From Planctomycetota bacterium (GTDB lineage: Bacteria; Planctomycetota; Planctomycetia; Pirellulales; PLA5), in the NCBI GenBank assembly GCA_029259895.1, contig JAJDEG010000133.1:1-38340 (forward strand): a stretch of 38,340 nt of DNA, given 5' to 3'. Position 1 is the stretch's first letter. Each line of letters starts with the position of its first letter. A program made the position numbers and the translations under genes. The notes under the pieces were generated by a model. The model worked only from the letters and a program-made list of their open reading frames with translations. It had not been told where the DNA came from and did not search any database. Of the stretch, positions 22,457 through 37,660 are shown one piece after another.

Positions 22457-22524
22457 CGCCCATTGCTCCGCACTCATCCCTCATCGCTGCTCACTATCCC
22501 CTTGCCCACTGCCCACTTCCTCAC
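22450..22524. repeat. Purine-rich short repeat cluster at a gene junction
   Basis: On the minus strand this segment reads as GTGGGCA twice, GTGAGCA, ATGAGGGATGAG and ATGGGCGATGAG in close succession, with 7-12-base spacing. It fills the gap between the 22521-26846 stop and the DUF1549 start and supplies both candidate ATG codons and the GGAG ribosome-binding site. Confidence 0.6.
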
Positions 22525-25500
22525 GGTCCCTCGACCGTCACCGCCATCACCACCGGCGCGGTCTCATCATTGCCCTTGACGAACTCCACCTGGGCGATTG
22601 TCTCGTCCCGCTTCGGCGAGATCGTCACGTGTCGAATTTGCTGTCCGCGCAGCCGAAACGCCCGCTTCGAGTCGCTGACGTCGGTCGATCCTGAGAAATC
22701 GGCAAAGTGCTTGCCGTTGACCAGCGGATGATCTTCCGTCTGCCCGTCGGCGTAATGCAGCCGCACGATCATCGACACGCTCTCGCGGCGGTCGTAGGGA
22801 TAGCCCCAGCCCGACACGCCGGAGAGCAAATGAATCGCCTTCGCCTTCGCATTGCAGGGGGCGACGACGCTCTTGGGATATTTCTGCGTCACGGCGTGCC
22901 GCGGGCCGTACAGCACGATCGCGTTGGGCACGCGGTCGCCCAACGGATCGATGATCTGAAACGGCACGCCGTTGGCGACCTGCTGGCCCCACGACGGGAA
23001 TATCAGCTTCTCGTAGTCCAGCCGATCGCCCTGAAACATGCCGCCCCGCGTGCTGACCACATTCGCCGCCTTCCCGAGCGGCAGCGCGAAGAACTTGCCC
23101 TTGGCGGATAGAAACTCCAGCAGATCGCGAACGCCCGCGTCGCCGAGCTTTTCGAAACCTTCCGGCATCAGCGACATGGTCGACGCCTTCATGGTGTCGA
23201 TATCCTCGCGCAACACGACGTGCCGCTTGGCCTCGGAGTCGACGAGCTCAACCGCCGTCCGCGTTTCGCCGGCCAGCAGCCCGCTGAGCACTTCGCCGTC
23301 GAGCGTCACCAACTGATGCTGGCGGAAGTTTCCTTCTACGTTGCGATTCGGATCGAGGATGTGGATGATCGATTCGCTTTTGGGATGCGCCGCCATGCCG
23401 GAGAGGTCCGGGCCAATCGTCGCCCCTTCGCCGCCGTGGCGATGGCACTTTGCACAGTTGTCGACGAACAGCTTCTTGCCAGCCGCCGCGTCGCCTCTCT
23501 GCGTGAGCGCGTCGGCAAACTTGTCGATCACCTTCTGCCGGTCGGGATTGGGCAACCCGCCCCCCGCGGCCAGCATCTTCGCGGCCCGCGCGGCCAGTTC
23601 CTTGTCCGGATGAGCGGCCAACTGCTGTCGCTGATCGAGGGCCAAATCTTCCAGCGCTAGTTTCTTGGCCTCGACCGCGTCGAGCAGCGCGACGGACCAC
23701 GCCTTTCGCCGCAACAGCACAGCCAGCGCCGCGCGCCGAGCGGTAGGTGTGAACTCGCCGATCCGTTCGACGATGGCCGAACCGATCTTGTCGGACTTAC
23801 CATCGGCCAACGCATCGAGCAACCCGCCAGCCAACTCCGGCGAAGTCCGCGGCGTAATGGCGGCCAACACGGCATCCACCGCCGCAGCATCGCCCGCCGC
23901 AACCAACTGTCGAGCCGATTGCAGCCGCACGTCGTCGGCGATTTCTTCGTCGCCGACTTGCTTGGCCAGCGTTTCGGTGAGTTTCTTCGTCAATTCCGCA
24001 AAACGTTCCGCCGCGCCCCAGCGGTTGGCGAGGGCGACAAGTTCGAGTTGCGAGGCCGGAGAAACTTTCGCCAACACGGTCGTCAGCGAATCGGCCAATG
24101 GCGGCGTGATCTCGACTTTCTTATCGCTCGGCCAGCCCTTGGAGAAACCGGCAATTGTCGCCTCCGCCATCGCAGGTGAAGCGGCATGTAGCGACGCAAA
24201 GATCGTCTTGAGCGAGTCGACATCACCCCCGCGGGCCTCATGTTCCGCAACCGTGCCAATAATCTTCGCGAACTGTTCGGCCAGCGATTTGTCGGGCTTG
24301 GTCAACGTCGCGGAGACGAGAAACTGTGGCGCGCTCCTGGCAGCCGCAGCGGTCGCTGCATCGACCATCCACCGGTCACTAATCATGCCCTCTTTCACGA
24401 ATAAACCCAACACCGCAAACGCCGCCTGCTGATCGCCCGGCATTTCGGCCAGCGCGACCAACGCATCCAAACGCACGCGGGCATTTTCACTCGACAGCGT
24501 CTTAGCATCGTCGAGTAACTTGAGTCCGTCGGCCGTTCTCGGCAACGCGGCGATCGCCGCGCGGCAACTCGACTCTTCGTCGCTGCTAAGAGCGCGGAGA
24601 AACGCCTCGCGTTGATCCGCATCGTTCAAATCGACCAATCCCAATCCTGCAAGTAACCGGAACCCCCCGCCGCGCTTACTGAGAACGTGAAACTTCGGCA
24701 CCATCTTGGTGACCAACTGACGAACGAGCGGTTCATCCTTACCCTGATCCACAACGACGCGCTGTGCTTGCAATTCGCCATCCAAAGCGCGACGAAGTGT
24801 GGTGACGATGTCTTCTTCGTCGTCGCTGGCTGCAATACTCTTGCCTCCATTCCCGTACACCACCCGATACACCCGCCCGTGCGTCTTGTCCCGTAGCGTC
24901 GTCTCGTACGCGGCTCCCTTGCCCGTCCGAAAGCCCTTCGGCGTCGGGTTGTGTTGGATGATGTAGTTGTACCAATCGATGAACCACAGCGCGCCGTCCG
25001 GACCAACCTGCGCCGCGACCGGCGACGTCCACGGATCGGTGCTGGCGAAGAAGTTGTAGCCATCGCGGGCGACGAACCCACTTCCCTGCGGGACGAGCCA
25101 GTTGAGGTGGATCAGGTGGCCCGTCGGTTCGCAGACAAACGCGGCGCGGTTCCAGTATTCTTCCGGAAACTGCCGGGCCGTGTAGAGTTCGTGGCCCGAG
25201 GCGGCCGTGAACTTGCCGTGCCAGTCCATCTGCCGCACGTCTCGGCTGATCGGATGAAAGTTGGCATGATCGGCAATCCCCGCCGAGCCGACGCCGTGCC
25301 AGCCGCGGACGTTCTCGTACAACCGATTCGGCAGCGCAACATGCACGCTGTGCTGATTGTTGGCCGTCGACGCGAACACGTCGCCGTTCTCGCTAAAGCC
25401 CAGGCCCCACGTGTTGTTGCTCGTCGGCGTGATGACCTCGAACGCCGAACCGTCCGGCTTGAAGCGGAACACGCACTGCCCGAACCGCTGCGAAAGCACC

Positions 25501-26846
25501 TTGCCGTCGGTGCCCTGCCGCGCCTGCCCGCCGCTGTAGCCGCAGACGCCCCAGATCCAGTTGTCGAATCCATAGTGCAGGTTCGACGCCACGGCGTGTG
25601 TATCGCCGCGACCGAAACCGCCGATCACCACGTCGCGGCGGTCGCAAACGCCGTCGCCGTCGGTGTCGCGCAGATGCATGATGTACGGAGCAAGCACGAC
25701 CAGCGCGCCGTCTTTGTACGGCAGCAAACTGGTGGGAATGTTCAGCTTGTCGGCGAACACGGTGAACTTGTCGGCCACACCATCGCCGTCGGTGTCTTCG
25801 CAGACCTTGATCCGGTCGTTCCCGTCGGCCCGCGGATCGCCGAGCAGCCGGTTGGGATAGTCGACGCTTTCGATGATCCACAGCCGGCCGCGATGGTCGA
25901 AGTTCATCGCGATCGGCTTGACGATGTCCGGCTCCGCGGCGAATAGCTCGACGCGAAAGCCTTCCGGCACGTGCATGTGCTTCATCGACATCGCCGGATC
26001 GAGCGGCTTGGGCATCTTCATCACGCGGTCGGCCTCGGTCCCCCACCGCTCGCCCGACACGTAATTCGGCAGCCCTTCGCCGGCGTCTTGATACTCCGTC
26101 GGCGGCAGATCGTCGTTCAATTCGCCGCACGCCCAGCGAATGCCCGAATCGAGCAACTGGTGAAAACCCGGATCGCGCCACGTGCGGTCGTCGTGCCCGC
26201 TGGCCGTGTAATACACGCGGCCCTTGCCCTGCTCGCGAACCCACGTCCACGGTTCGTAGCCTCCGTCGTCCCGCGCACGAGCCATCAGCACGCGGATGTC
26301 GCCGCCAAGCTCATTGTGCATGTACGTCTCGTCGAACGACTCGAAGCTCTTCACGCCCCGCATGGCCGGATGCTGCGCGTCGATGATCCGCGCCCGGAAC
26401 ACGCCGGTCTCGTGCTTCCAGAATCGCCCGCCGACGAGTTCGGTGTACTTGCTGCTGTTGCGAAACGTGTGCGTCGCGCAGTGAACGGGAATCACGCCCT
26501 TGCCGCTTTCGAGATATTCAACGAGCGCCGCTTCGTTCGCCGCCGGCAAATCGCCGCTGTCGCGATAGATCAACACGCCGTCGTACTTGGCGAGATTCTC
26601 CTTGGTCAGTTGGGCCACGTCGTCGGTGTACGTGACGTCGATGCCGCGCCGCTGGAGCACCGGCGTGATCGACGCGGCGCGCTTGGCTGGTTCGTGGTGG
26701 CCGTTGTCGCCGAGAAACAGAATCGTCAGCCGCTTTGCTTCGGCCTTTGTTTCGGCCGGTGCATCTTCCGCGGCCCACAAGGCAGGCAGGTGAATAATCA
26801 ACACAGCGGCAATCGCCCAAGCGGCGCGATGGATATAAAAGTGCAT
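22521..26846 (-). CDS. ThuA + PVC-type dehydrogenase propeller + HEAT + c-type heme giant protein
   Basis: This 1,441-residue exported protein has a signal peptide at 1-26. A ThuA-like domain spans about 38-245 (LTILFLGDNGHHEPAKRA, GKGVIPVHCATHTF, GRVYYTASGHDDRTW). A PVC-type membrane-bound dehydrogenase-like propeller spans about 270-700 (PEGFRVELFAAEPDIVKPIA, HRGRLWIIESVDYPNRLL, DTDGDGVADKFTVFAD, DGALWFIDWYNYIIQHNPTP). Ala/Leu-rich HEAT-like helices follow to about 1100. A heme domain has GKKLFVDNCAKCHRHGGEGA near 1120-1135, then the TIGR02603-like HILDPNRNVEGNFRQHQLVT. A C-terminal beta domain of about 190 residues (HAVTQKYPKSVVAPCNAKAK, GYPYDRRESVSMIVRLHY) looks like a putative-glycosyl-hydrolase carbohydrate-binding (NPCBM-like) module. 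It should be an envelope redox protein acting on a sugar-type substrate, but this is inferred. DUF1549/DUF1553 follows within 64 bases. Confidence 0.93.
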   Translation of the reverse strand: MHFYIHRAAWAIAAVLIIHLPALWAAEDAPAETKAEAKRLTILFLGDNGHHEPAKRAASITPVLQRRGIDVTYTDDVAQLTKENLAKYDGVLIYRDSGDLPAANEAALVEYLESGKGVIPVHCATHTFRNSSKYTELVGGRFWKHETGVFRARIIDAQHPAMRGVKSFESFDETYMHNELGGDIRVLMARARDDGGYEPWTWVREQGKGRVYYTASGHDDRTWRDPGFHQLLDSGIRWACGELNDDLPPTEYQDAGEGLPNYVSGERWGTEADRVMKMPKPLDPAMSMKHMHVPEGFRVELFAAEPDIVKPIAMNFDHRGRLWIIESVDYPNRLLGDPRADGNDRIKVCEDTDGDGVADKFTVFADKLNIPTSLLPYKDGALVVLAPYIMHLRDTDGDGVCDRRDVVIGGFGRGDTHAVASNLHYGFDNWIWGVCGYSGGQARQGTDGKVLSQRFGQCVFRFKPDGSAFEVITPTSNNTWGLGFSENGDVFASTANNQHSVHVALPNRLYENVRGWHGVGSAGIADHANFHPISRDVRQMDWHGKFTAASGHELYTARQFPEEYWNRAAFVCEPTGHLIHLNWLVPQGSGFVARDGYNFFASTDPWTSPVAAQVGPDGALWFIDWYNYIIQHNPTPKGFRTGKGAAYETTLRDKTHGRVYRVVYGNGGKSIAASDDEEDIVTTLRRALDGELQAQRVVVDQGKDEPLVRQLVTKMVPKFHVLSKRGGGFRLLAGLGLVDLNDADQREAFLRALSSDEESSCRAAIAALPRTADGLKLLDDAKTLSSENARVRLDALVALAEMPGDQQAAFAVLGLFVKEGMISDRWMVDAATAAAARSAPQFLVSATLTKPDKSLAEQFAKIIGTVAEHEARGGDVDSLKTIFASLHAASPAMAEATIAGFSKGWPSDKKVEITPPLADSLTTVLAKVSPASQLELVALANRWGAAERFAELTKKLTETLAKQVGDEEIADDVRLQSARQLVAAGDAAAVDAVLAAITPRTSPELAGGLLDALADGKSDKIGSAIVERIGEFTPTARRAALAVLLRRKAWSVALLDAVEAKKLALEDLALDQRQQLAAHPDKELAARAAKMLAAGGGLPNPDRQKVIDKFADALTQRGDAAAGKKLFVDNCAKCHRHGGEGATIGPDLSGMAAHPKSESIIHILDPNRNVEGNFRQHQLVTLDGEVLSGLLAGETRTAVELVDSEAKRHVVLREDIDTMKASTMSLMPEGFEKLGDAGVRDLLEFLSAKGKFFALPLGKAANVVSTRGGMFQGDRLDYEKLIFPSWGQQVANGVPFQIIDPLGDRVPNAIVLYGPRHAVTQKYPKSVVAPCNAKAKAIHLLSGVSGWGYPYDRRESVSMIVRLHYADGQTEDHPLVNGKHFADFSGSTDVSDSKRAFRLRGQQIRHVTISPKRDETIAQVEFVKGNDETAPVVMAVTVEGP

Positions 26847-27049: not shown

Positions 27050-28483
27050 TCACATATTCGTCAAATCGTCGCCGCCGCCCGGCCCAATCAGCCGGTCGAG
27101 CGCCGCCGATAACGTCGCGGCATGATCGAGCGATTCGGCGTAAATTCGGCAAATCCGATGGCTGATCGGCAACTGCCGGTACAACAGGTCCGTCGACAGC
27201 GGCCGCCCTTGCTTTGAGGTCGGATCGTACAAGAAGTTCAAGCCAGCCGCCGGCCCGCGCGTGTCGGGACGATGCACGTGCCGCGCAATGTCGATCCGCA
27301 GCGGCGTTGATTCGATCGCCGCCGGAAGCTGTTTTCGCAACGCTTGCTCGACGAAATCCGCATCGCTGAACACGCTCGCCCGCTCGCCCTCGCCGGCGGC
27401 GAATACGAGATGCCGCTGGCACGCCATCTTCCAGCGGACTTCGCGTCGCAGAAACCGTTGCCATGCCTCGCCAACGGCCCGCTTGCCTTCTTCGGCCGAT
27501 GCGTGCCAGGCGGCAACGTCGATCAGCATCGACCAGTCCGTAAATCGCTGATAGGCGTTGAGGTGTTCCAGCGGATTGCCCGGAAACAGGAACTGCTTGC
27601 TCGCGCGAAACAAGTCCTTGAGCGAAAGATCGATCGCCCGCACCGTGCGATGGAAGTAGACGGACCGAAACAATTCCGCCCGCACGCCGACGAAGCGGAT
27701 CAGGGCGTCGACGGCCCGCTGGTGGATCGTGAGTCCTTGCTCGGTGAAGAAGCTGTAATTGAGCAAGCGATCGAGATCGAACGCCCGGCTGCTATAGCCC
27801 GACATGTACGCGTCGCGGAGCACGAAGTCCATGTTGTCGATGGTGTAGATGCCGCTGAACAGGCTTTGCAGCAAACGCAACCACCGCGGCGGTTCGATCG
27901 TTTCGCCGCCACTGGCGTTCTCGCCGGCCGCGTCGGTCGCCGCCTTCGGCCGCGTGATGAGAAACGCGATCTGCTCCGGGTCGAGCGTCTCGTGCGGTTC
28001 CAGCCGGCCGTTGGGATTGCGCCGTATGCCGCGGATCAACTCGGCGAGCGGTCCGCGAATGATCGCGCTGCCGAGCGTTTCGTGCGTCAGACCGTAATCG
28101 GCCAAATACTGATCGTCGAAGAAGTGGCCGAATGGCCCGTGGCCGACGTCGTGCAACAAGCCCGCCAGCCGCACGAGCGACTCTACGTATCCGCGGCTCG
28201 GCACATCGGGACAGACCTCGCGCAAACTGTCGTACAGTGCCGCCACCGCGCGACTGCCCAAGTGCATGACGCCCAGCACATGCTGAAACCGGGTGTGCTC
28301 CGCCGATGGAAAGACCCACCAGGCGGTCTGCAACTGGTGGATCTGCCGCAACCGTTGCAGCCACGGGTGGTCGACGAGCGTCCGCTCGGCGACCTCGCCG
28401 GGATCGAGCAAACGGTCGGCCGTAAACGGGATGTATCCGTGTACGGGGTCGTGACTGAGGCTTTCGCGTTGCAGATCGCGCAT
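27050..28483 (-). CDS. HD-domain nucleotidohydrolase (SAMHD1/dGTPase-like)
   Basis: This 477-residue cytoplasmic protein matches the COG1078 HD phosphohydrolase family. The N-terminus has DPVHGYIPFT, then LVDHPWLQRLRQIHQLQTAW and the metal-binding set: TRFQH (His68), LLHDVGHGPFGH (His111, Asp112, with flanking HGPFGH) and a later DNMDFVLRDAYMSG aspartate. Members hydrolyse dNTPs to deoxynucleosides and triphosphate. ATG 28483 places DPVHGYI near residue 12, as in homologues; ATG 28576 would add 31 residues of no obvious function. No clear ribosome-binding site is seen for either. A linker of about 30 residues (AATDAAGENASGG) lies between the HD core and the C-terminal half. It is divergent from the TsaC-fusion gene. 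Confidence 0.9.
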   Translation of the reverse strand: MRDLQRESLSHDPVHGYIPFTADRLLDPGEVAERTLVDHPWLQRLRQIHQLQTAWWVFPSAEHTRFQHVLGVMHLGSRAVAALYDSLREVCPDVPSRGYVESLVRLAGLLHDVGHGPFGHFFDDQYLADYGLTHETLGSAIIRGPLAELIRGIRRNPNGRLEPHETLDPEQIAFLITRPKAATDAAGENASGGETIEPPRWLRLLQSLFSGIYTIDNMDFVLRDAYMSGYSSRAFDLDRLLNYSFFTEQGLTIHQRAVDALIRFVGVRAELFRSVYFHRTVRAIDLSLKDLFRASKQFLFPGNPLEHLNAYQRFTDWSMLIDVAAWHASAEEGKRAVGEAWQRFLRREVRWKMACQRHLVFAAGEGERASVFSDADFVEQALRKQLPAAIESTPLRIDIARHVHRPDTRGPAAGLNFLYDPTSKQGRPLSTDLLYRQLPISHRICRIYAESLDHAATLSAALDRLIGPGGGDDLTNM

Positions 28484-28799
28484 CGTGGCTATTACGTGTT
28501 GGAATTGCGTGTTAGAGATTTCGCCGAGCACCGTGCCCGAGGTGGCCGGCGATCCAGCATTCCCGTGCCAGAGCATTGTAGAGTTCGCGCCACCGGATGA
28601 AACGCCGCAAAAGGGCGAGACGCCGCCGAATTCTCCGCCCCTTGACCCATGCGTAACGTCCCTTATAGTAAGGCATTACGTCACGAAACGTCGAATCGCC
28701 CTCCCGTCGTAGCTTGGCGCGCCCGAATGCCCCGCCGCGCTGGGCGATCCTTTCTCACTCGTCTCGACCGATCTTTCGCCAGCGCAAAGCTGCTTTGCC
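28484..28799. other. Divergent intergenic region between the HD-hydrolase and TsaC-fusion genes
   Basis: This 316-base gap contains a plus-strand promoter (28642-28669) with an imperfect palindrome over its -10. If the HD gene starts at 28576 the gap is shorter. I see no further gene. Confidence 0.5.
28642..28669 (+). promoter_or_regulatory. Predicted sigma70-like promoter with overlapping palindrome, driving the TsaC-phosphatase fusion
   Basis: TTGACC (28642-28647) is followed after 16 bases by TATAGT (28664-28669); each matches consensus at 5/6. An imperfect palindrome, CGTAACGTCCCTTA (28652-28665) against TAAGGCATTACG (28669-28680), overlaps the -10 and could be an operator. The leader to ATG 28800 would be about 125 bases. 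Confidence 0.5.
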
Positions 28800-29921
28800 A
28801 TGCCGCCGGTCGTCATCGACATCCGCAACGTCGACGATTCGCGCGACGTCGTGCATCGAGCCGTGCAGGCGCTCGCGGAAGGAAAAATCGTCGCTTTCCC
28901 GACCGAGACCGTTTACGGTGTGGCGGCCTCGGCCCTCGACGCCAGCGCCGTCGAGCGGTTGGCGGCCATCAAGGGGCGGGCGGCTGGCCACCCATTTGCG
29001 CTGGCCGTGAAGAGCCTCAACGACGCGCGCGACTATGCTCCGGCCATGTCTCCTTTAGCCGAGCGAATCGCACGTCGATGTTGGCCCGGTCCGCTCACGC
29101 TGGTCGAGACCTGCGACCATCCGCTGAGTTTGGCGGCGCAACTTCCCGCTAGTGTTCGCGCGGCCGTAATTCCGACGGGCACGATTGGCTTTCGCGTACC
29201 GGCCCACGCATTCATTTTGGACGTGCTGCGCATGCTTGCCGGACCCTTGGCGCTGACTAGCGCCAACCGACACGGCGAGCCCGACGCCGTCACGGCGGAA
29301 CAGGTCGTGGCGTCGCTGGGCGACGACGTTCAAATGGTTTTCGACGACGGGGCATGTCGCTACGGCCAGTCTTCTTCCGTCGTCCGCGTCGAAGGGAAAC
29401 AGTTCAAGATGCTCCGCGAAGGGGTGATTTCCGAAAAGAACCTGCGTCGTCTGGCCAGCTTGCTCGTGTTGGTCGTGTGTACGGGCAACACGTGCCGCAG
29501 CCCGATGGCCGAAGCGATCTTTCGCCATCGCATCGCTCAAAAAGTTGGGTGCCGCGACGAGGAACTGGAGGAGCACGGCGTGGTCGTCATGTCGGCCGGG
29601 ATCTCGGCGATGCTGGGATCGCAAGCGGCACCGGAAGCCATCGAAGTCGTCGCCCGACGCGGACTTGACCTTTCGCGTCACGAAAGCCAGCCGCTGACCG
29701 CCCAGTTGGCTCGCCAGGCCGACGCGATTTTTGCCATGACGCGCTCGCATTTGACGGCGATCGCGTCGCAGTGGCCCGATGCGGCCACGCGGGCGAAGTT
29801 GCTATCGCCGGACGAATTCGACATTGCCGATCCGATCGGGGCGTCAGCGGAAGTTTACCAGCGATGCGCCGAACAAATTGACGCCGCCATTGCCGTTCGC
29901 TTAGAAGATCTTGGGTTGTAG
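28800..29921 (+). CDS. Fusion: threonylcarbamoyl-AMP synthase (TsaC/YrdC) + LMW phosphatase (YwlE-like)
   Basis: This 373-residue protein joins two cytoplasmic enzymes. Residues 1-210 are a YrdC/TsaC domain (KIVAFPTETVYGVAASALD, AAIKGRAAGHPFALAVKSL, CWPGPLTLVETCD, GTIGFRVPAH, PLALTSANRHGEPDA). It makes threonylcarbamoyl-AMP for tRNA t6A37; the KxR/SxN lysine/arginine region is present. Residues 220-373 are a low-molecular-weight phosphatase: VCTGNTCRSPMAEA has catalytic Cys227 and Arg233, and the general acid Asp344 lies in DPIGAS. The loop residue Thr231 matches the YwlE threonine associated with phospho-arginine specificity, where ordinary LMW-PTPs have Ile or Leu. The LVVCTGN start follows the YrdC end within about ten residues, with no intervening stop or frame change. 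rpiB follows 92 bases downstream. In Bacillus the separate genes ywlC, ywlE and ywlF are similarly clustered. Confidence 0.93.
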   Translation: MPPVVIDIRNVDDSRDVVHRAVQALAEGKIVAFPTETVYGVAASALDASAVERLAAIKGRAAGHPFALAVKSLNDARDYAPAMSPLAERIARRCWPGPLTLVETCDHPLSLAAQLPASVRAAVIPTGTIGFRVPAHAFILDVLRMLAGPLALTSANRHGEPDAVTAEQVVASLGDDVQMVFDDGACRYGQSSSVVRVEGKQFKMLREGVISEKNLRRLASLLVLVVCTGNTCRSPMAEAIFRHRIAQKVGCRDEELEEHGVVVMSAGISAMLGSQAAPEAIEVVARRGLDLSRHESQPLTAQLARQADAIFAMTRSHLTAIASQWPDAATRAKLLSPDEFDIADPIGASAEVYQRCAEQIDAAIAVRLEDLGL

Positions 29922-30013
29922 GAAACTCGGCGAATTCGTCGTAGAATGAGATAGTGAAAGCCCCGCCCGCGGAACTATCCGCCGAGCGAGCGCGACCGGG
30001 AGAATCGACGACC

Positions 30014-30472
30014 ATGAAAATCTCGATCGGCAGCGACCACCGCGGATTTACCGTTAAGGGCAAGGTCGTCGACTTGCTCAAGCGGCTCGGCCACGATGTG
30101 GACGATGTCGGCACACACGGTGCCGAGGCGGTCGATTACCCCGACGTCGCCAAAGACGTCGCGCGCAAAGTGAGCAAGCATGAAGTGGACCGCGGCATCT
30201 TGATTTGCGGCAGCGGCATCGGCATGGCGATCGCCGCCAACAAGATTCCGGGCGTACGCGCCGCCCCCTGCCACGACGACCTGACCGCCGAAATGAGCCG
30301 GCGGCACAACGACCTGAACGTGCTGTGCCTTTCGGCCGACATGCTGGGCGAAAAGCTTATCGACCGCATGGTCGAGATCTGGCTGTCGACGGAGTTTGAG
30401 GCCGGCCGCCACGCCCGTCGCGTGCAGAAGATCGACGACATCGAAGCCGAAGCGTTGCGGGCCAACTGCTAG
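30014..30472 (+). CDS. rpiB: Ribose-5-phosphate isomerase B
   Basis: This 152-residue protein matches the RpiB/LacAB family, which interconverts ribose-5-phosphate and ribulose-5-phosphate in the pentose phosphate pathway. It starts MKISIGSDHRGFTVKG with the GSDHRG phosphate/sugar-binding loop. Catalytic Cys65 is in ILICGSGIGM and His98 in SRRHNDLNVLCL. DVGTHGAEAVDYPDVAKDVA and the C-terminal EIWLSTEFEAGRHARRVQKI are also typical. ATG 30014 has GGGAGA about ten bases upstream. It follows the TsaC-phosphatase fusion gene on the same strand with a 92-base gap, so cotranscription is likely. Confidence 0.95.
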   Translation: MKISIGSDHRGFTVKGKVVDLLKRLGHDVDDVGTHGAEAVDYPDVAKDVARKVSKHEVDRGILICGSGIGMAIAANKIPGVRAAPCHDDLTAEMSRRHNDLNVLCLSADMLGEKLIDRMVEIWLSTEFEAGRHARRVQKIDDIEAEALRANC

Positions 30473-30871: not shown

Positions 30872-31399
30872 TATCCCGTTCGTCTCCGTCAAGCATTCCT
30901 ACGGCCGAAATCGATCTCGTCGCCCGCCGTGAGATCGCGACCGCTGGGTAAACGAACCCCTAGCCGCGGCGAACCAAATCTGGCTTCCGTACGGTCGAGA
31001 GGCCACTCGACGCCCAGAGACCACCCACGAACGACTTTCCAGCACCTGTTTTACCACGAGGCGGGTCGTTTTTCCATGAACCCCCCCTAATTTCCTCGTG
31101 GTGCTTTGGTAGTGGCGTGCGTATCCGCGACCGCCGAACGTTAGCGGCCCGTTAAGAAACGAAAATAAGTGGCTGCATAGCGAAACATGTGGCCCGCCGG
31201 CGAGGTTAAATCGCCTGAATATCCCGTTCTGGCGAGTGCGAGGGGGATATGCGCAATTTTTGCGGCCGCCTCGCCGGGGACATTTCCCGATTCCGTCACT
31301 AGAATAGAGGCTTCCGATTAGGTCGGTTCTTCCGTGCATTCGCGGCGACGCAGCAACGACGGCGCACATTCGACTCCCCCCACCTTGAGAGACTCCGCC
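30872..31399. other. Intergenic region upstream of the giant LEPR-XLL gene
   Basis: This 528-base gap holds a predicted plus-strand promoter (31277-31305). The rest (30893-31270) is mixed sequence with no motif I can name. Long minus-strand frames through it are antisense continuations and are not called. Confidence 0.5.
31277..31305 (+). promoter_or_regulatory. Predicted promoter for the giant LEPR-XLL gene
   Basis: GGGACA (31277-31282) is followed after 17 bases by TAGAAT (31300-31305), matching -35 at 4/6 and -10 at 5/6. Transcription would start near 31312, giving a leader of about 88 bases to ATG 31400. Confidence 0.4.
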
Positions 31400-34300
31400 A
31401 TGGCGGCATTGAATTCGGGCCGATTGTCCTTCCGCAACCTCGCCGGCGCGACCTTTGGCAAGCAGCGAAAACGGGACCGTAAACGCGTCGCGTCGCCACG
31501 ACTGCGGCTCGAATCGCTCGAACCTCGGCTCGTGCTCACCGACGTCTCCGGCGCGATTGCGGCCGACACCGTTTGGACTCGTGCCAACTCGCCTTACGAC
31601 GTCGTCGGCGACGTCACCGTCCAGGCCGCCGCCACGCTGAAGATCGAGCCGGGCGTGGTGATGAACTTTACCGCTGGGACGGGCATTACGGTCGCCGGCC
31701 GCCTTGTCGCCGAAGGAACCGCCTTCGACCGCATCACCTTCCAACGTGCCGCCGGTGCGGGCAGCGATTGGGACGGTCTCTCCTTCGCCAACACGCTCAC
31801 CGATAGCCGCATCACCTTCGCCGACTTCGTCGAGGGCGACGGCCAAGGCGAATCGATCCACGTCGTCCATTCGCGGCTGTACCTGGACAACCTCACCTGG
31901 ACCGGCACCGGTGGCACGATCCTCGAACTCGAACATCCGTCGCTGATCGTGCGCAATTCGATGTTTCCCACGTCCGGCGGCGGCGAAGTCATCCACGGCG
32001 AATACATCGAAGGCGACGAGTATCTGATCATCGAAGGCAACACGTTCGCCAATAGCAACAACGGCGGCGACGTGATCGATATTCTCGGCGCGGATCGCCC
32101 CGGGCCGGTGATGCAGATTCTCAACAACGTGTTTCTCGGCGGCGGCGACGACGGACTCGATATGGACGGCACCGACGCCCACATCGAGGGCAACCTGTTC
32201 ATGAACTTCCGTTTGAACACCTCGCGGGCCACCACCTCCAACGCCATCGCCACTGGCTTGCCACAGTCGGGCGAAAGCAACCGCACGCAGGTCACCATTG
32301 TCCGCAATATCTTCGTCGACAACGATCATCACATTCTGCTCAAGGAAGACGCCTTCGCCACCATCGAGAACAACGTCTTCATCGACGCCACGATGGCGGC
32401 CATTCAGTTCAACGAAACTGGCGGTACAGCGGTCGGCGGACCGGCCGTCGGCGCGTATCTCGACGGCAATATCTTCTCGGGCAACGCCGATCTGTTCAAA
32501 AACCTGACGAAGACCGCCACGTTCGAGTCGCAACTGACGGTCAACCGCTCGCTGCTGCCCAACAGCTTGCAAACCTACAGCGACAGTTCGACGGCGCTCG
32601 CCCACAGCTTCGGCGTGGGGAACATCGACGCGAACCCGATGTTCGTCGACGCGGCGGGCAACAATTTCCGCCTCCTCGGCGGTTCGCCGGCCATCGGCAC
32701 CGGACCGAACGGCATTGACATGGGTGCCTACGTCAACGCCGGTCCGACCATCGGTGGCGTGCCGGCGGGGCCGTCGACCAGCAACGATCAGACGTTCACC
32801 GTCGCCGGGCCGGGCATCACCCACTATCGCTATCGCGTCGACGGCGGACCGTACACCGCGACGACGCCGGTAAGTACGCCGATTATTCTGTCGGACCTCG
32901 CCAACGGCGACCACACGATTGACGTACTCGGCATGAACGATGCCGGCGAATGGTTTGCGGGCCAGACGCCCGCGTTCGGCGAGCGGCACGCCGAGGTGAT
33001 CGCCCCGTCGCGCACGCGCACCGGCGAAGCCCTGCCGATGATCGTCCGCGTCCGCGACGCGCTGGGCAACATCAACACGCAACTCACCACGCCCGCCAGC
33101 TTCGCGAACGCCACCGACTTGGCCGCGACCACGTTCGGCGTCAAGAAAGGCGTCGGCTCGCTCGCGCCGGTCGTCACTGCCACGGCCGACTTCGGCCTTG
33201 CCTTCGGCGGGTCGCTCGCCGCCGGTTCGACCGGCAAGTCGATCGATGTGCTCGACGGAGCGTACCCCGTCGAAACGCACAGCGGTACGCTCTCCGGCAA
33301 CACCGTCTGGGACAACACAACCGAACATCGCGTTACGGGCAACCTCACCATTCCCGCCGGCAGCACGCTGACGATCCAGCCCGGCACGCGCGTCATGCTC
33401 GGTAGCGAAGTGAACATCCTGGTCGACGGTGCGATCGCCAGCAATGGCACGGCCGCCGATCCCGTGATGTTCAACGCCATCGATCCGGCCAATGACTGGG
33501 GCGGCATCGAGATCAACGGTGCATCCGCCACCGGCGACTTCGCTTACACGTTCTTCACTCACGGCGGCGACGATCCCACCCGCGGCTTCGCGCATTCCGA
33601 TAGCCAGCCGCTGCTCAAGGCCAACAGCGGCACAATCGATTGTTCAAACTGCTTTATCATCAACAATCCCGGCAAGGGCCTCGGCTCGACGAGCAACGCC
33701 CGCATCAACTTCGACTGGAGCGTCATCTCGCATAGCGACACCGGCGGTCAGGTGAACAACACGGTGCTCAAGATCACCAACAGTTGGATCAAAGACCTGC
33801 CGGACGACGCGCCTGGATTCGTCAACGACGACAACGACGGCCAATATTTCCTCGGCTTCCACAACTCGGGCGAGCCGTCGCTGGTCCAGAACAGCTTCAT
33901 CCTCGACACGAAGGACGACTGCCTCGACCACAACGGCGCGCGGCTTAACATCATTTCGTCGTGGCTCGAAGGCTGTACGCACGAAGGTCTGGCTTCGAGC
34001 GCGAGCAATTGGGCGAACGTCGTCGACACCGTCGTGACCGGCACCAACCAAGGCTACGAAGCCGGTTACGGTGGCCCTCAGCTATCCATCACCAATAGCG
34101 TGGCCGTCCGCGTCGATCACGTGATCGAAAACGACCCGTCGTCCGACGCCGCCGTCAACGCCGGCATCCGCTATGGCGACGGCTACAACGGCAGCAACGG
34201 TGCCTACACCGGCCAAATTACGGCCATCAACAACGTCGTCCACGACAATCAAGACAACGTCCGCAACTACAACGGCCCGCCTCCGCGACCCGTGCTACCG

Positions 34301-37300
34301 GCCAGCGTGATCGACATCACCTATTCGATGACGAACGACGCCGACTACGACGCCGCTACCGGCAACCTCACCGGCATCCCCGTGTTCGGTCCGTTCATGC
34401 ACCTGCTCCGCGGCTCGGCGGGCCTGAACGCCGGCAGCGACGGAGAAACGGTCGGCCGCTTGTTCCCGGCAGTATCCGCCACGTTTACCATCGACAGCCC
34501 CGACGCGTTGCTGCGGATCGACGAAGTGCAAGCAATCAACAACGGCGGCGTCGATTCCGATCTCATCGAACTGGTCAATGCGGGCGGGGCAATGTCGGTC
34601 GATCTGTCCGGTATGACGATCACCAACGATCCGTCGCAGCCCGACCTGTACACTTTCGGCGCCGGCACGATTCTCGGCCCCGGCGAGCGGCTCACCCTGT
34701 TCGCCGACCTGGCGCTCGGTTCGCCCGCGGAAATTCACCTCGGCTTCACGCTCGATGAAACCGGCGATGAGGTATTCCTGTACGACTCGGCGGCAAACGG
34801 CGGCGCGCTTGTCGATTCGGTCACCTTCGGACGACAACTCGACGGCACGTCGATCGCCCGCGTCGGCGGCGCGTTTCGTTTGGCCCAACCGACGATCGGC
34901 TCTGCCAACGTCGCGCTGTCTACGGCTCAGCCCAATGCAGTGAAGCTCAACGAATGGCTGGCCAGTCCTGGCGGCGCGTTCGCCGACGACTTCATCGAAC
35001 TCTACAATCCCAGCACGCTGCCAGTCGACATCGGCGGTTTGCATCTGACGAACGACCCCGTCGGACAGCCGGGCTTGTTCACGATTCGTCCGCTGTCGTT
35101 CGTCGCCGGAGCGGGCTTTGCGGTATTCGTGGCAGACAACGACACGGCGGCCGGTTCCGACCACGTCAACTTTGAACTGGATGCAGCAGGCGGCTCGATC
35201 GCGCTGACCGGCGTCACCTCGACGACAACAATCGATGCGATCACTTACGGCCCGCAAGCCGCCGGCATCTCCGAAGGCCGCACACCCGACGGCGGCTCGA
35301 TCGTCGGCCCCATCGACCCGCCCACACCCGGCGCAATCAATCCCGACCCGACGCTGCCAGACGTGTTCCCGCTCATCACGCTCACCGACACGTGGAGCTA
35401 TGACCAGTCGGGCGCGAATCTAGGCACCGCTTGGCGAGCCACCTCGTTCGATGACTCCGCCTGGCCGCAAGGCCCGTCCGTACTCGGCGTGGAAGCCAAT
35501 CCGCTGCCGACGCCGGCCGTGCTCAACACGATGCTGAACCTCAATCTCGACGGCGTCGCGCCCAACACGACGACGTTCTACTTCCGCACGCACTTCAACT
35601 TCGCCGGCGACACCAGCGACGTGCTGCTGCGGTTAGGCGGCCTCGTCGACGACGGCGCGGTGTTTTACCTAAACGGCGTCGAGCTGTATCGCTACAACAT
35701 GTCGCCCACCGGCACGATCAATTTCGACACCTTCGCCACCACGGGCACCGAGGCAAACGCGTACATTCCCGTCGTCACATTCCCCGCGACGGGACTTCTC
35801 GTGGGCGACAACGTGCTGGCGGTCGAGGTCCATCAGGACGACGCCAACAGCAGTGACATTGTGCTCGGCGTGATCTTCGACGCGGTGGAAATCCTCGACT
35901 TCACGCCGCCTACCGCGCCGACCAATCTCACCGGCGTCGCCGCCAGCAGCAACCGCGTCAACCTGACGTGGAACGCCGCCACCGACGCGGAAACGGGCGT
36001 CGCCGAATATCGCATCTATCGCAACGACGCGCCCGTCGGCACGTCGACAACCACCACGTTCAGCGATACGACGGTCGTCGTCGGGCAGACGTATCTATAC
36101 GAAGTCTCGGCGGTCAATCTGGCCGACCTCGAAGGCGCTCGCAGCACATCGGCCAGCGTCACGGTAACGAACGTCGTCACCGCCATGTATCAGGACGGCG
36201 TGTTCCCAACGCCGGCGTACACCGGCACGCAGGATGCTTGGCTCCGCGGTAGCCAGCCGAACACGAACACGGGTGGCGACGACCGCATGGATTCCGACGG
36301 CGACTCCGGCGGCAGCGACGAGTGGTCGGTTCTTCGCTGGACCCTCAGCGACATTCCCGCCGACGCGGTCGTCGAAAGCGCGACGATCGCCATCGACGTG
36401 AACGACTCGAGCGTCTCGACCTACGACCTCTACGCGGTGCTCAGGGACTGGGTCGAATCCGAAGTCACCTTCACCGACTACCGCGCCGGCCAGCCGTGGC
36501 AATCGCCCGGCGCGGACGGCCCGACCGACCGCGGCGGCAGCGTCGTCGGCGTGCTCGACAGCGGCAACTCGACGGGCATCAAGACGATCGCGCTCAACGC
36601 CGCCGGCATCCTGCTGGTGCAATCCTGGATCGACAACCCGGTTAGCAACAACGGCGTCATCATCGCCAACCCGACGGCGACCGATGGCCTCGAAATGCGG
36701 ACCAGCGAATACGCCACGCTCGCCAGCCGCCCGAAGCTGACGATTCGCTATTCGACCGGCGACTCGATCGCGCCAACCGTCACCGCGTCGAGCGTCGATC
36801 TCGCCGTCGCGCCCCAGCGATTGCAATTCGCATTCAGCGAGGAAGTGCTCGTCGACGCGAGCAACTTGACGCTTACGAACAACACGACGAGCGAGACGGT
36901 GCCTACGGGCAGCATCTCGATGTCTTACAACACATCGACCAATACGGCGACGTTTACGTTCCCTGGTTTCGCCGGCGGCGTGCTTCCCAGCGGCGACTAT
37001 GCGGCTTCGCTTTCGACGGTCGGCGTAACCGATCTCGCCGGCAACCCGCTGAGCAGCAACGGCAACGAAACCCTCGCGTTTAGCTGGCTTCGCGGGGACA
37101 TTGACGAAAGCGGCACGATCGACGCGGCGGACATTGATGGCCTGTACGCGGCCTTCAGCCCGTCGAACGGCAACCCGCGATTCGATCTCAACGGCAACGG
37201 CTCCGTCAATCAACTCGACGTCGACGTGCTGGTGACGACGATCCTCGGCACGCAATACGGCGACGCCAATCTCGACGGCATCGTAGACCGCGCCGACGTC

Positions 37301-37660
37301 GCCGCATTGGCCGGCAATTTCGGCGGCCCCGGCGGTTGGGCGGCCGGCAATTTCGACGGCAGTGCGTCGGGCGTCGCTCTGGCCGATCTTGCGACGGTGC
37401 AGCGGAATCTGGGCTTCGGCACGGGCGGTTCGCCGGCCGCACCGGCAGCGATTGTGGCGACGTCGACCCAACGGCCCATTGCGTCGGCAGGGCGCATCAG
37501 GCGCGAACTACGAGCCGTCGTTCGAGGGCGGCTTGCGTCGACGGCGGTTGACGCGGTTATCGACAACGCTTCGGCGTCCGCCAGCTCGTCGCTCACGGCG
37601 CTACGTGCACGCCGTGCGGCACGCCCGGTGGTCGCGATCGACGACCTGTTTACTCGCTAG
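31400..37660 (+). CDS. Giant LEPR-XLL surface protein: beta-helices, LTD, FN3, DNRLRE, dockerin-like repeats
   Basis: This 2,086-residue protein has a basic N-terminus and the LEPR-XLL signature [11 protein letters not shown] near 36-47. Two parallel beta-helix regions lie near 80-447 and 640-1000, each opening with a TLxIxPGxxV motif ([32 protein letters not shown]). Two lamin-tail domains follow ([12 protein letters not shown] near 1055, [12 protein letters not shown] near 1195), then a galactose-binding-like domain (about 1329-1497) and one FN3 domain ([20 protein letters not shown]). A DNRLRE-type domain near 1596-1787 includes [20 protein letters not shown], followed by an Ig-like domain. 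Dockerin-like calcium repeats lie near 1900-2010 ([34 protein letters not shown]). The architecture indicates a secreted surface protein. ATG 31400 has GAGAGA seven bases upstream; an in-frame GTG at 31334 is less likely. Its 3' end overlaps mtnA by 11 bases. Confidence 0.93.

Follow-up and report, generated by a model that had tools for sequence, protein, structure and literature searches.

The locus raises the question of whether one planctomycete protein could both make the precursor of a tRNA modification and dephosphorylate protein arginines, and whether these two activities belong together. In the window (the whole 38,340-nucleotide stretch analysed), an earlier note had described an uninterrupted frame joining a threonylcarbamoyl-AMP (TC-AMP) synthase, TsaC, to a low-molecular-weight (LMW) phosphatase, with rpiB directly downstream.

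A single gene encodes a TsaC domain and an LMW phosphatase domain

The frame was confirmed as 373 codons on the plus strand (28800-29921) with no internal stop. Pfam recovered both expected domains: residues 24-208 matched Sua5_yciO_yrdC (E 3.6e-48) and residues 223-363 matched LMWPc (E 5.3e-28). The TsaC half scored above the cut-off of the NCBIfam model TIGR00057 (L-threonylcarbamoyladenylate synthase). The loop given previously as VCTGNTCRS was found as C227-T-G-N-T231-C-R-S, in which Thr231, at C+4, does correspond to YwlE Thr11. Downstream, both Pfam and NCBIfam recognised rpiB, whose likely ATG (30014) lies 92 bp past the fusion stop within a called ORF spanning 29954-30472. The features are as follows.

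28800..29921, plus strand: TsaC/LMW arginine-phosphatase-like fusion gene, 373 aa (ORF, Pfam, NCBIfam, relatives)
28869..29423, plus strand: TsaC (Sua5_yciO_yrdC) domain (Pfam), the sole PF01300 match found in its own genome
28971..28979, plus strand: K58-G-R60, KxR half of the TsaC catalytic tetrad (alignment; criterion from PMC10321239)
29259..29267, plus strand: S154-A-N156, SxN half of the TsaC catalytic tetrad (alignment)
29424..29465, plus strand: short inter-domain linker (gap between the Pfam matches)
29466..29888, plus strand: LMW phosphatase domain, YwlE-type (Pfam and sequence comparison)
29478..29501, plus strand: P-loop CTGNTCRS, with Thr231 (29490-29492) at PX5, as in the phospho-arginine (pArg) type
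29829..29831, plus strand: Asp344 of the D-loop (DPIG), predicted general acid (alignment)
30014..30472, plus strand: rpiB, ribose-5-phosphate isomerase B (Pfam, NCBIfam); the longer called ORF starts at 29954

Elsewhere in the window, an HD-domain phosphohydrolase-like gene (27050-28576, minus strand) is divergent from the fusion across a common upstream gap of 223 bp, and next but one to the fusion is a gene for a 1441-aa protein with ThuA, DUF7133 and cytochrome c domains (22521-26846, minus strand). Downstream of rpiB, a 2108-aa ORF (31334-37660, plus strand) apparently encodes a large secreted repeat protein, judging by the appearance of its translation.

The fusion is spread through nearly all of the phylum Planctomycetota

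We analysed 294 evenly sampled Planctomycetota genomes, each at least 90% complete. The phosphatase domain was matched in 240/294, with nearly all of the better matches in open frames of at least 340 residues, and a recognisable TsaC half was present in about 123 of the 130 proteins read. The two-domain architecture, which the earlier note had proposed to look for in planctomycetes, is thus not peculiar to the host genome, and rpiB lies just downstream of it in many members of the phylum. The assembly of the host genome comprises 791 contigs, as might favour a fusion created by misassembly or a frameshift. Nevertheless, the same unbroken frame occurs on another planctomycete contig (L061, 83% identity across the full fusion) and in most sampled genomes, including single-contig ones. 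This excludes an artefact for all practical purposes, and with it the suspicion that two separate genes had been merged by a sequencing error. Phyla beyond Planctomycetota were seen solely through plasmid-collection records, because the contig scan used weakly conserved query peptides and recovered two loci only.

The TsaC half is most likely the TC-AMP synthase of the host

The KxR/SxN tetrad has been used as a criterion for TsaC (PMC10321239). In the host protein this tetrad is intact (K58-G-R60 and S154-A-N156) and the PTETVYG motif is present. The fused domain was the only PF01300 match found in the host genome (93% complete), and the profile search of that genome recovered no SUA5 domain (PF03481), either in the fusion protein or elsewhere. 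The fusion therefore shares its catalytic signature and TIGR00057 membership with the TsaC/Sua5 family; in contrast to Sua5, however, the C-terminal place is taken by the phosphatase. TsaD is encoded in the host genome, and t6A is near-universal in bacteria. Together, these features indicate that the fused TsaC is most likely the source of TC-AMP for t6A.

The phosphatase half resembles YwlE

The phosphatase half carries the C(X)4CR(S/T) motif of LMW protein tyrosine phosphatases. Among PDB sequences, its closest solved relatives were 4egs followed by Bacillus subtilis YwlE, and D344-P-I-G aligns with the D-P-F-G of YwlE, placing the catalytic Asp in a DP D-loop. In YwlE and PtpB, the PX5 residue sets the preference for pArg (Thr) or phospho-tyrosine (Ile) (PMC8001253), and a Thr-to-Ile substitution at this position in YwlE is described, in the account that PMC8001253 gives of Fuhrmann et al., as shifting activity from pArg to phospho-tyrosine. 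Across 130 fusion-type proteins, PX5 was Thr in 122, Ser in 3, and Leu, Arg or Met in the rest; Ile did not occur. The resemblance to YwlE/PtpB thus extends over the P-loop (CTGNTCRSP), PX5, the DP D-loop and the top PDB matches, and the genome also encodes McsB, McsA and ClpC (see below). The differences are that this phosphatase sits covalently behind TsaC, has DPI in place of DPF, belongs to a Gram-negative-type phylum and is assigned its activity from sequence.

Activity on phospho-tyrosine or another small substrate, rather than on pArg, is improbable. Pfam and older annotation do name the family tyrosine phosphatase, the D-loop is not DPF, and 8/130 proteins have a PX5 residue other than Thr. 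Against this, PX5 is Thr or Ser in 125/130 and never Ile, YwlE is nearest by sequence, McsB and McsA are encoded in the same genome, and typical Ile-type LMW phosphatases are encoded separately in some of these genomes. The remaining LMW phosphatases of these genomes were either of tyrosine type (CLGNICRSP or CMGNICRSP with a DPYY loop) or of ArsC type (CTGNSCRSQ). A second LMWPc protein of the host genome (C289) was considered as a second YwlE and rejected, its loop (CVENANRS) being ArsC-like.

In three fused proteins of family f26 (L135, L136, L137) the loop reads C[LV]GNLNRS; PX5 is Leu, Asn replaces the second Cys, and the phosphatase is possibly dead or altered. L137, the sole one of the three that was aligned, has an intact TsaC tetrad.

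An McsB-type kinase is encoded in the host and in nearly all sampled genomes of the phylum

The host genome encodes one McsB, which scored 469.5 bits against the cut-off of 385 for NF002194 ('protein arginine kinase'). It retains its catalytic residues and most of the pArg receptor site (E121, C167, E212, S285, R337 and R341), the site having a D338N replacement. Host mcsA adjoins mcsB and matched NF053706 at E 4.9e-34, a score under the Bacillus-type cut-off of that model. Host ClpC has a full N-domain with both GTEHILLG motifs, the Glu residues of which we take to be the pArg readers. The earlier note had suggested searching for an McsB-type kinase; with McsB found alongside McsA and ClpC, the objection that the genome might have no arginine kinase falls away. 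The pair was located as follows.

G000:C377 (L001 874-2802), minus strand: mcsA-mcsB pair, planctomycete locus

At the positions of B. subtilis Asp338 and Arg194, the receptor site of the G000:C377 McsB carries Asn and Lys, respectively, each of which is typical of the related planctomycetes read. More widely, mcsA was adjacent to mcsB in 27 of the 30 loci read, and the McsB family occurred in 288/294 genomes. With McsB this common, its co-occurrence with the fusion has little power. This co-occurrence is also imperfect, as a YwlE-type phosphatase was not found, within the phylum sample, in several McsB-bearing families (f38, f59 and f64 among others). Families f38, f59, f64, f26 and f32 (e.g. 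L051-L060) have an intact mcsA-mcsB pair together with ArsC-like LMW proteins or none. Either another phosphatase acts in the McsB families without a YwlE-type enzyme, or pArg is not reversed there. The B. subtilis control genome gave no match for PF00217 or Clp_N even though B. subtilis has mcsB and clpC, and negatives from this control call for caution.

Most Sua5-bearing relatives lose the TsaC tetrad and often keep the domain

Sua5 was detected in 104/294 genomes of the phylum. Among proteins chosen non-randomly for spread and for both Sua5 states, the full KxR/SxN tetrad was intact in 54/67 from genomes without Sua5 compared with 5/63 from genomes with it (Fisher, P = 3.6e-18). When each genus was counted once, K and SxN were kept in 54/58 without and 5/43 with Sua5. 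Some of the exceptions in the group without Sua5 probably reflect another PF01300 protein in the genome: G183 and G277 each carry one on a different contig, and G014 has two matches. Where families included both Sua5 states, the same trend was seen in f2, f30, f39, f53 and f60, with f54 ambiguous and none reversed; this concordance indicates that tetrad decay occurred more than once. A tree-based pair test on a 155-residue phosphatase alignment identified 22 changes of Sua5 state and six supported pairs, of which about three agreed with the expectation and none ran counter to it; with so few pairs, this is not significant.

The tetrad-less domain retains W95-P-G-P98, P134, P149, G184 and G208, whereas K58, R60, S154 and N156 are replaced, and the phosphatase loop remains intact in these proteins. 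In genus g13, dN/dS for the tetrad-less domain was about 0.04-0.16 (mostly 0.05-0.13), whereas genera g2 and g4, in which the domain is intact, gave 0.02-0.04; many dS values were high, so that close pairs weigh most in these estimates. Retention under purifying selection points to a second role of the TsaC half, one apart from catalysis that benefits the phosphatase, at least in certain lineages. This benefit may lie in docking, regulation or stability.

The remnant in Sua5-bearing lineages might instead serve the phosphatase only as a scaffold for folding or solubility and be in the process of being lost. In G199, G249, G175, G214 and G262, the TsaC half is eroded beyond recognition or gone, and all ten listed genomes in which the best phosphatase frame is short and unfused have Sua5. 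Fused TsaC is thus not indispensable for the phosphatase. We nevertheless regard a passive scaffold as rather unlikely, given the g13 dN/dS values and the fact that Pfam still matches the tetrad-less domain in several genera of family f7 (E 3e-14 to 1.5e-24).

Related clusters and a second fusion

The arrangement had been likened to the ywlC-ywlE-ywlF cluster of B. subtilis with its first two partners fused. Separate-gene clusters agree with this: Acetoanaerobium (L224) has prfA...sua5-ywlE-rpiB-upp and Listeria has sua5-ywlE as neighbouring genes. The comparison holds for the three adjacent functions and fails for the identity of the first partner, which is a short TsaC here and Sua5 in the Bacillota prfA-sua5-ywlE-rpiB cluster. 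In Monoglobus pectinilyticus, a clostridium, we found a 508-aa Sua5-SUA5-LMWP fusion (WP_320690508.1; L222 2480-4006) directly before rimI and tsaD, annotated as a t6A synthase only. Like the planctomycete protein, it combines a t6A synthase and an LMW phosphatase with CTGNTCRSP in one chain; unlike it, it is built on a full Sua5, has the SUA5 domain in between and lies beside rimI-tsaD. It is probably an independent fusion event. The closest PDB match, Thermoanaerobacter tengcongensis 4egs, is a YwlE-like LMW phosphatase deposited as RpiB, and this link by name suggests that YwlE-RpiB fusions, to the other neighbour, may also exist.

No description of the planctomycete fusion turned up in the literature that could be searched, a body that takes in few subscription papers or database annotations. 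The component families are known; what appears to be undescribed there is their joining, its distribution through the phylum and the recurrent loss of catalysis from a domain that is retained.

A possible link between t6A synthesis and arginine dephosphorylation

We consider it likely, on the strength of the predicted activities, that the protein is bifunctional, acting as a TC-AMP synthase for t6A37 and a YwlE-type arginine phosphatase, with the phosphatase possibly held at the t6A machinery. The TsaC half would supply threonylcarbamoyl-AMP for tRNA t6A37, while McsA-McsB would mark arginines that the phosphatase of the fusion would unmark before ClpC acts; proteins still marked would be removed by ClpC-type proteolysis. 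By keeping the phosphatase at the t6A machinery, the fusion might protect TsaC, and TsaD with which it partners, from McsB marking and ClpCP degradation, and so link accurate translation with proteostasis. Sua5-bearing relatives would have a TsaC half that no longer makes TC-AMP and persists as a part of the phosphatase serving docking or structure.

A link between t6A and arginine phosphate is plausible because, in B. subtilis, McsB, YwlE and ClpCP are reported to set the stability of TsaD, the user of TC-AMP, via Arg282 (PMC7546277). By this analogy, we infer that t6A synthesis and dephosphorylation may be coupled, and the retention of tetrad-less TsaC in Sua5-bearing relatives makes such coupling more plausible. 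The DPI D-loop, compared with DPF in YwlE, and the D338N replacement in McsB speak against the coupled, bifunctional reading.

Both activities could also be real and uncoupled, the fusion being the frozen end-product of a tsaC-ywlE-rpiB operon that ensures equal expression and nothing else. This is slightly less likely than true coupling, though nearly as likely. The same genes are separate neighbours in Acetoanaerobium and Listeria, 4egs hints at fusion with the other neighbour, and rpiB, for which we know of no link to t6A synthesis or arginine dephosphorylation, sits in the same cluster. A purely passive fusion, however, would not predict that tetrad-less TsaC is often kept under strong purifying selection after Sua5 takeover, and the Monoglobus protein joins the same two functions a second time. 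Returning to a coupled protein, the TsaC half may also be a regulatory or targeting subunit that recruits the phosphatase to the t6A machinery or acts as a sensor of threonine or ATP, becoming a dead-enzyme docking domain once Sua5 has taken over; we put this forward tentatively, as one of the less probable possibilities.

Implications for Planctomycetota

Protein arginine phosphorylation has mainly been studied in Gram-positive bacteria. Here, the kinase, its activator and a predicted arginine phosphatase turn up across a phylum of Gram-negative type, and the enzyme that opens the pathway to a near-universal tRNA modification is fused to that phosphatase. Where the tRNA activity has repeatedly been lost in nature while the domain was retained, catalysis is separated from the other role of the fusion, and this repeated decay of TsaC provides a direct test case for a link between t6A synthesis and phospho-arginine signalling. 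If the TsaC half were indeed a regulatory subunit, t6A synthesis and phospho-arginine quality control would be physically one system throughout the phylum.
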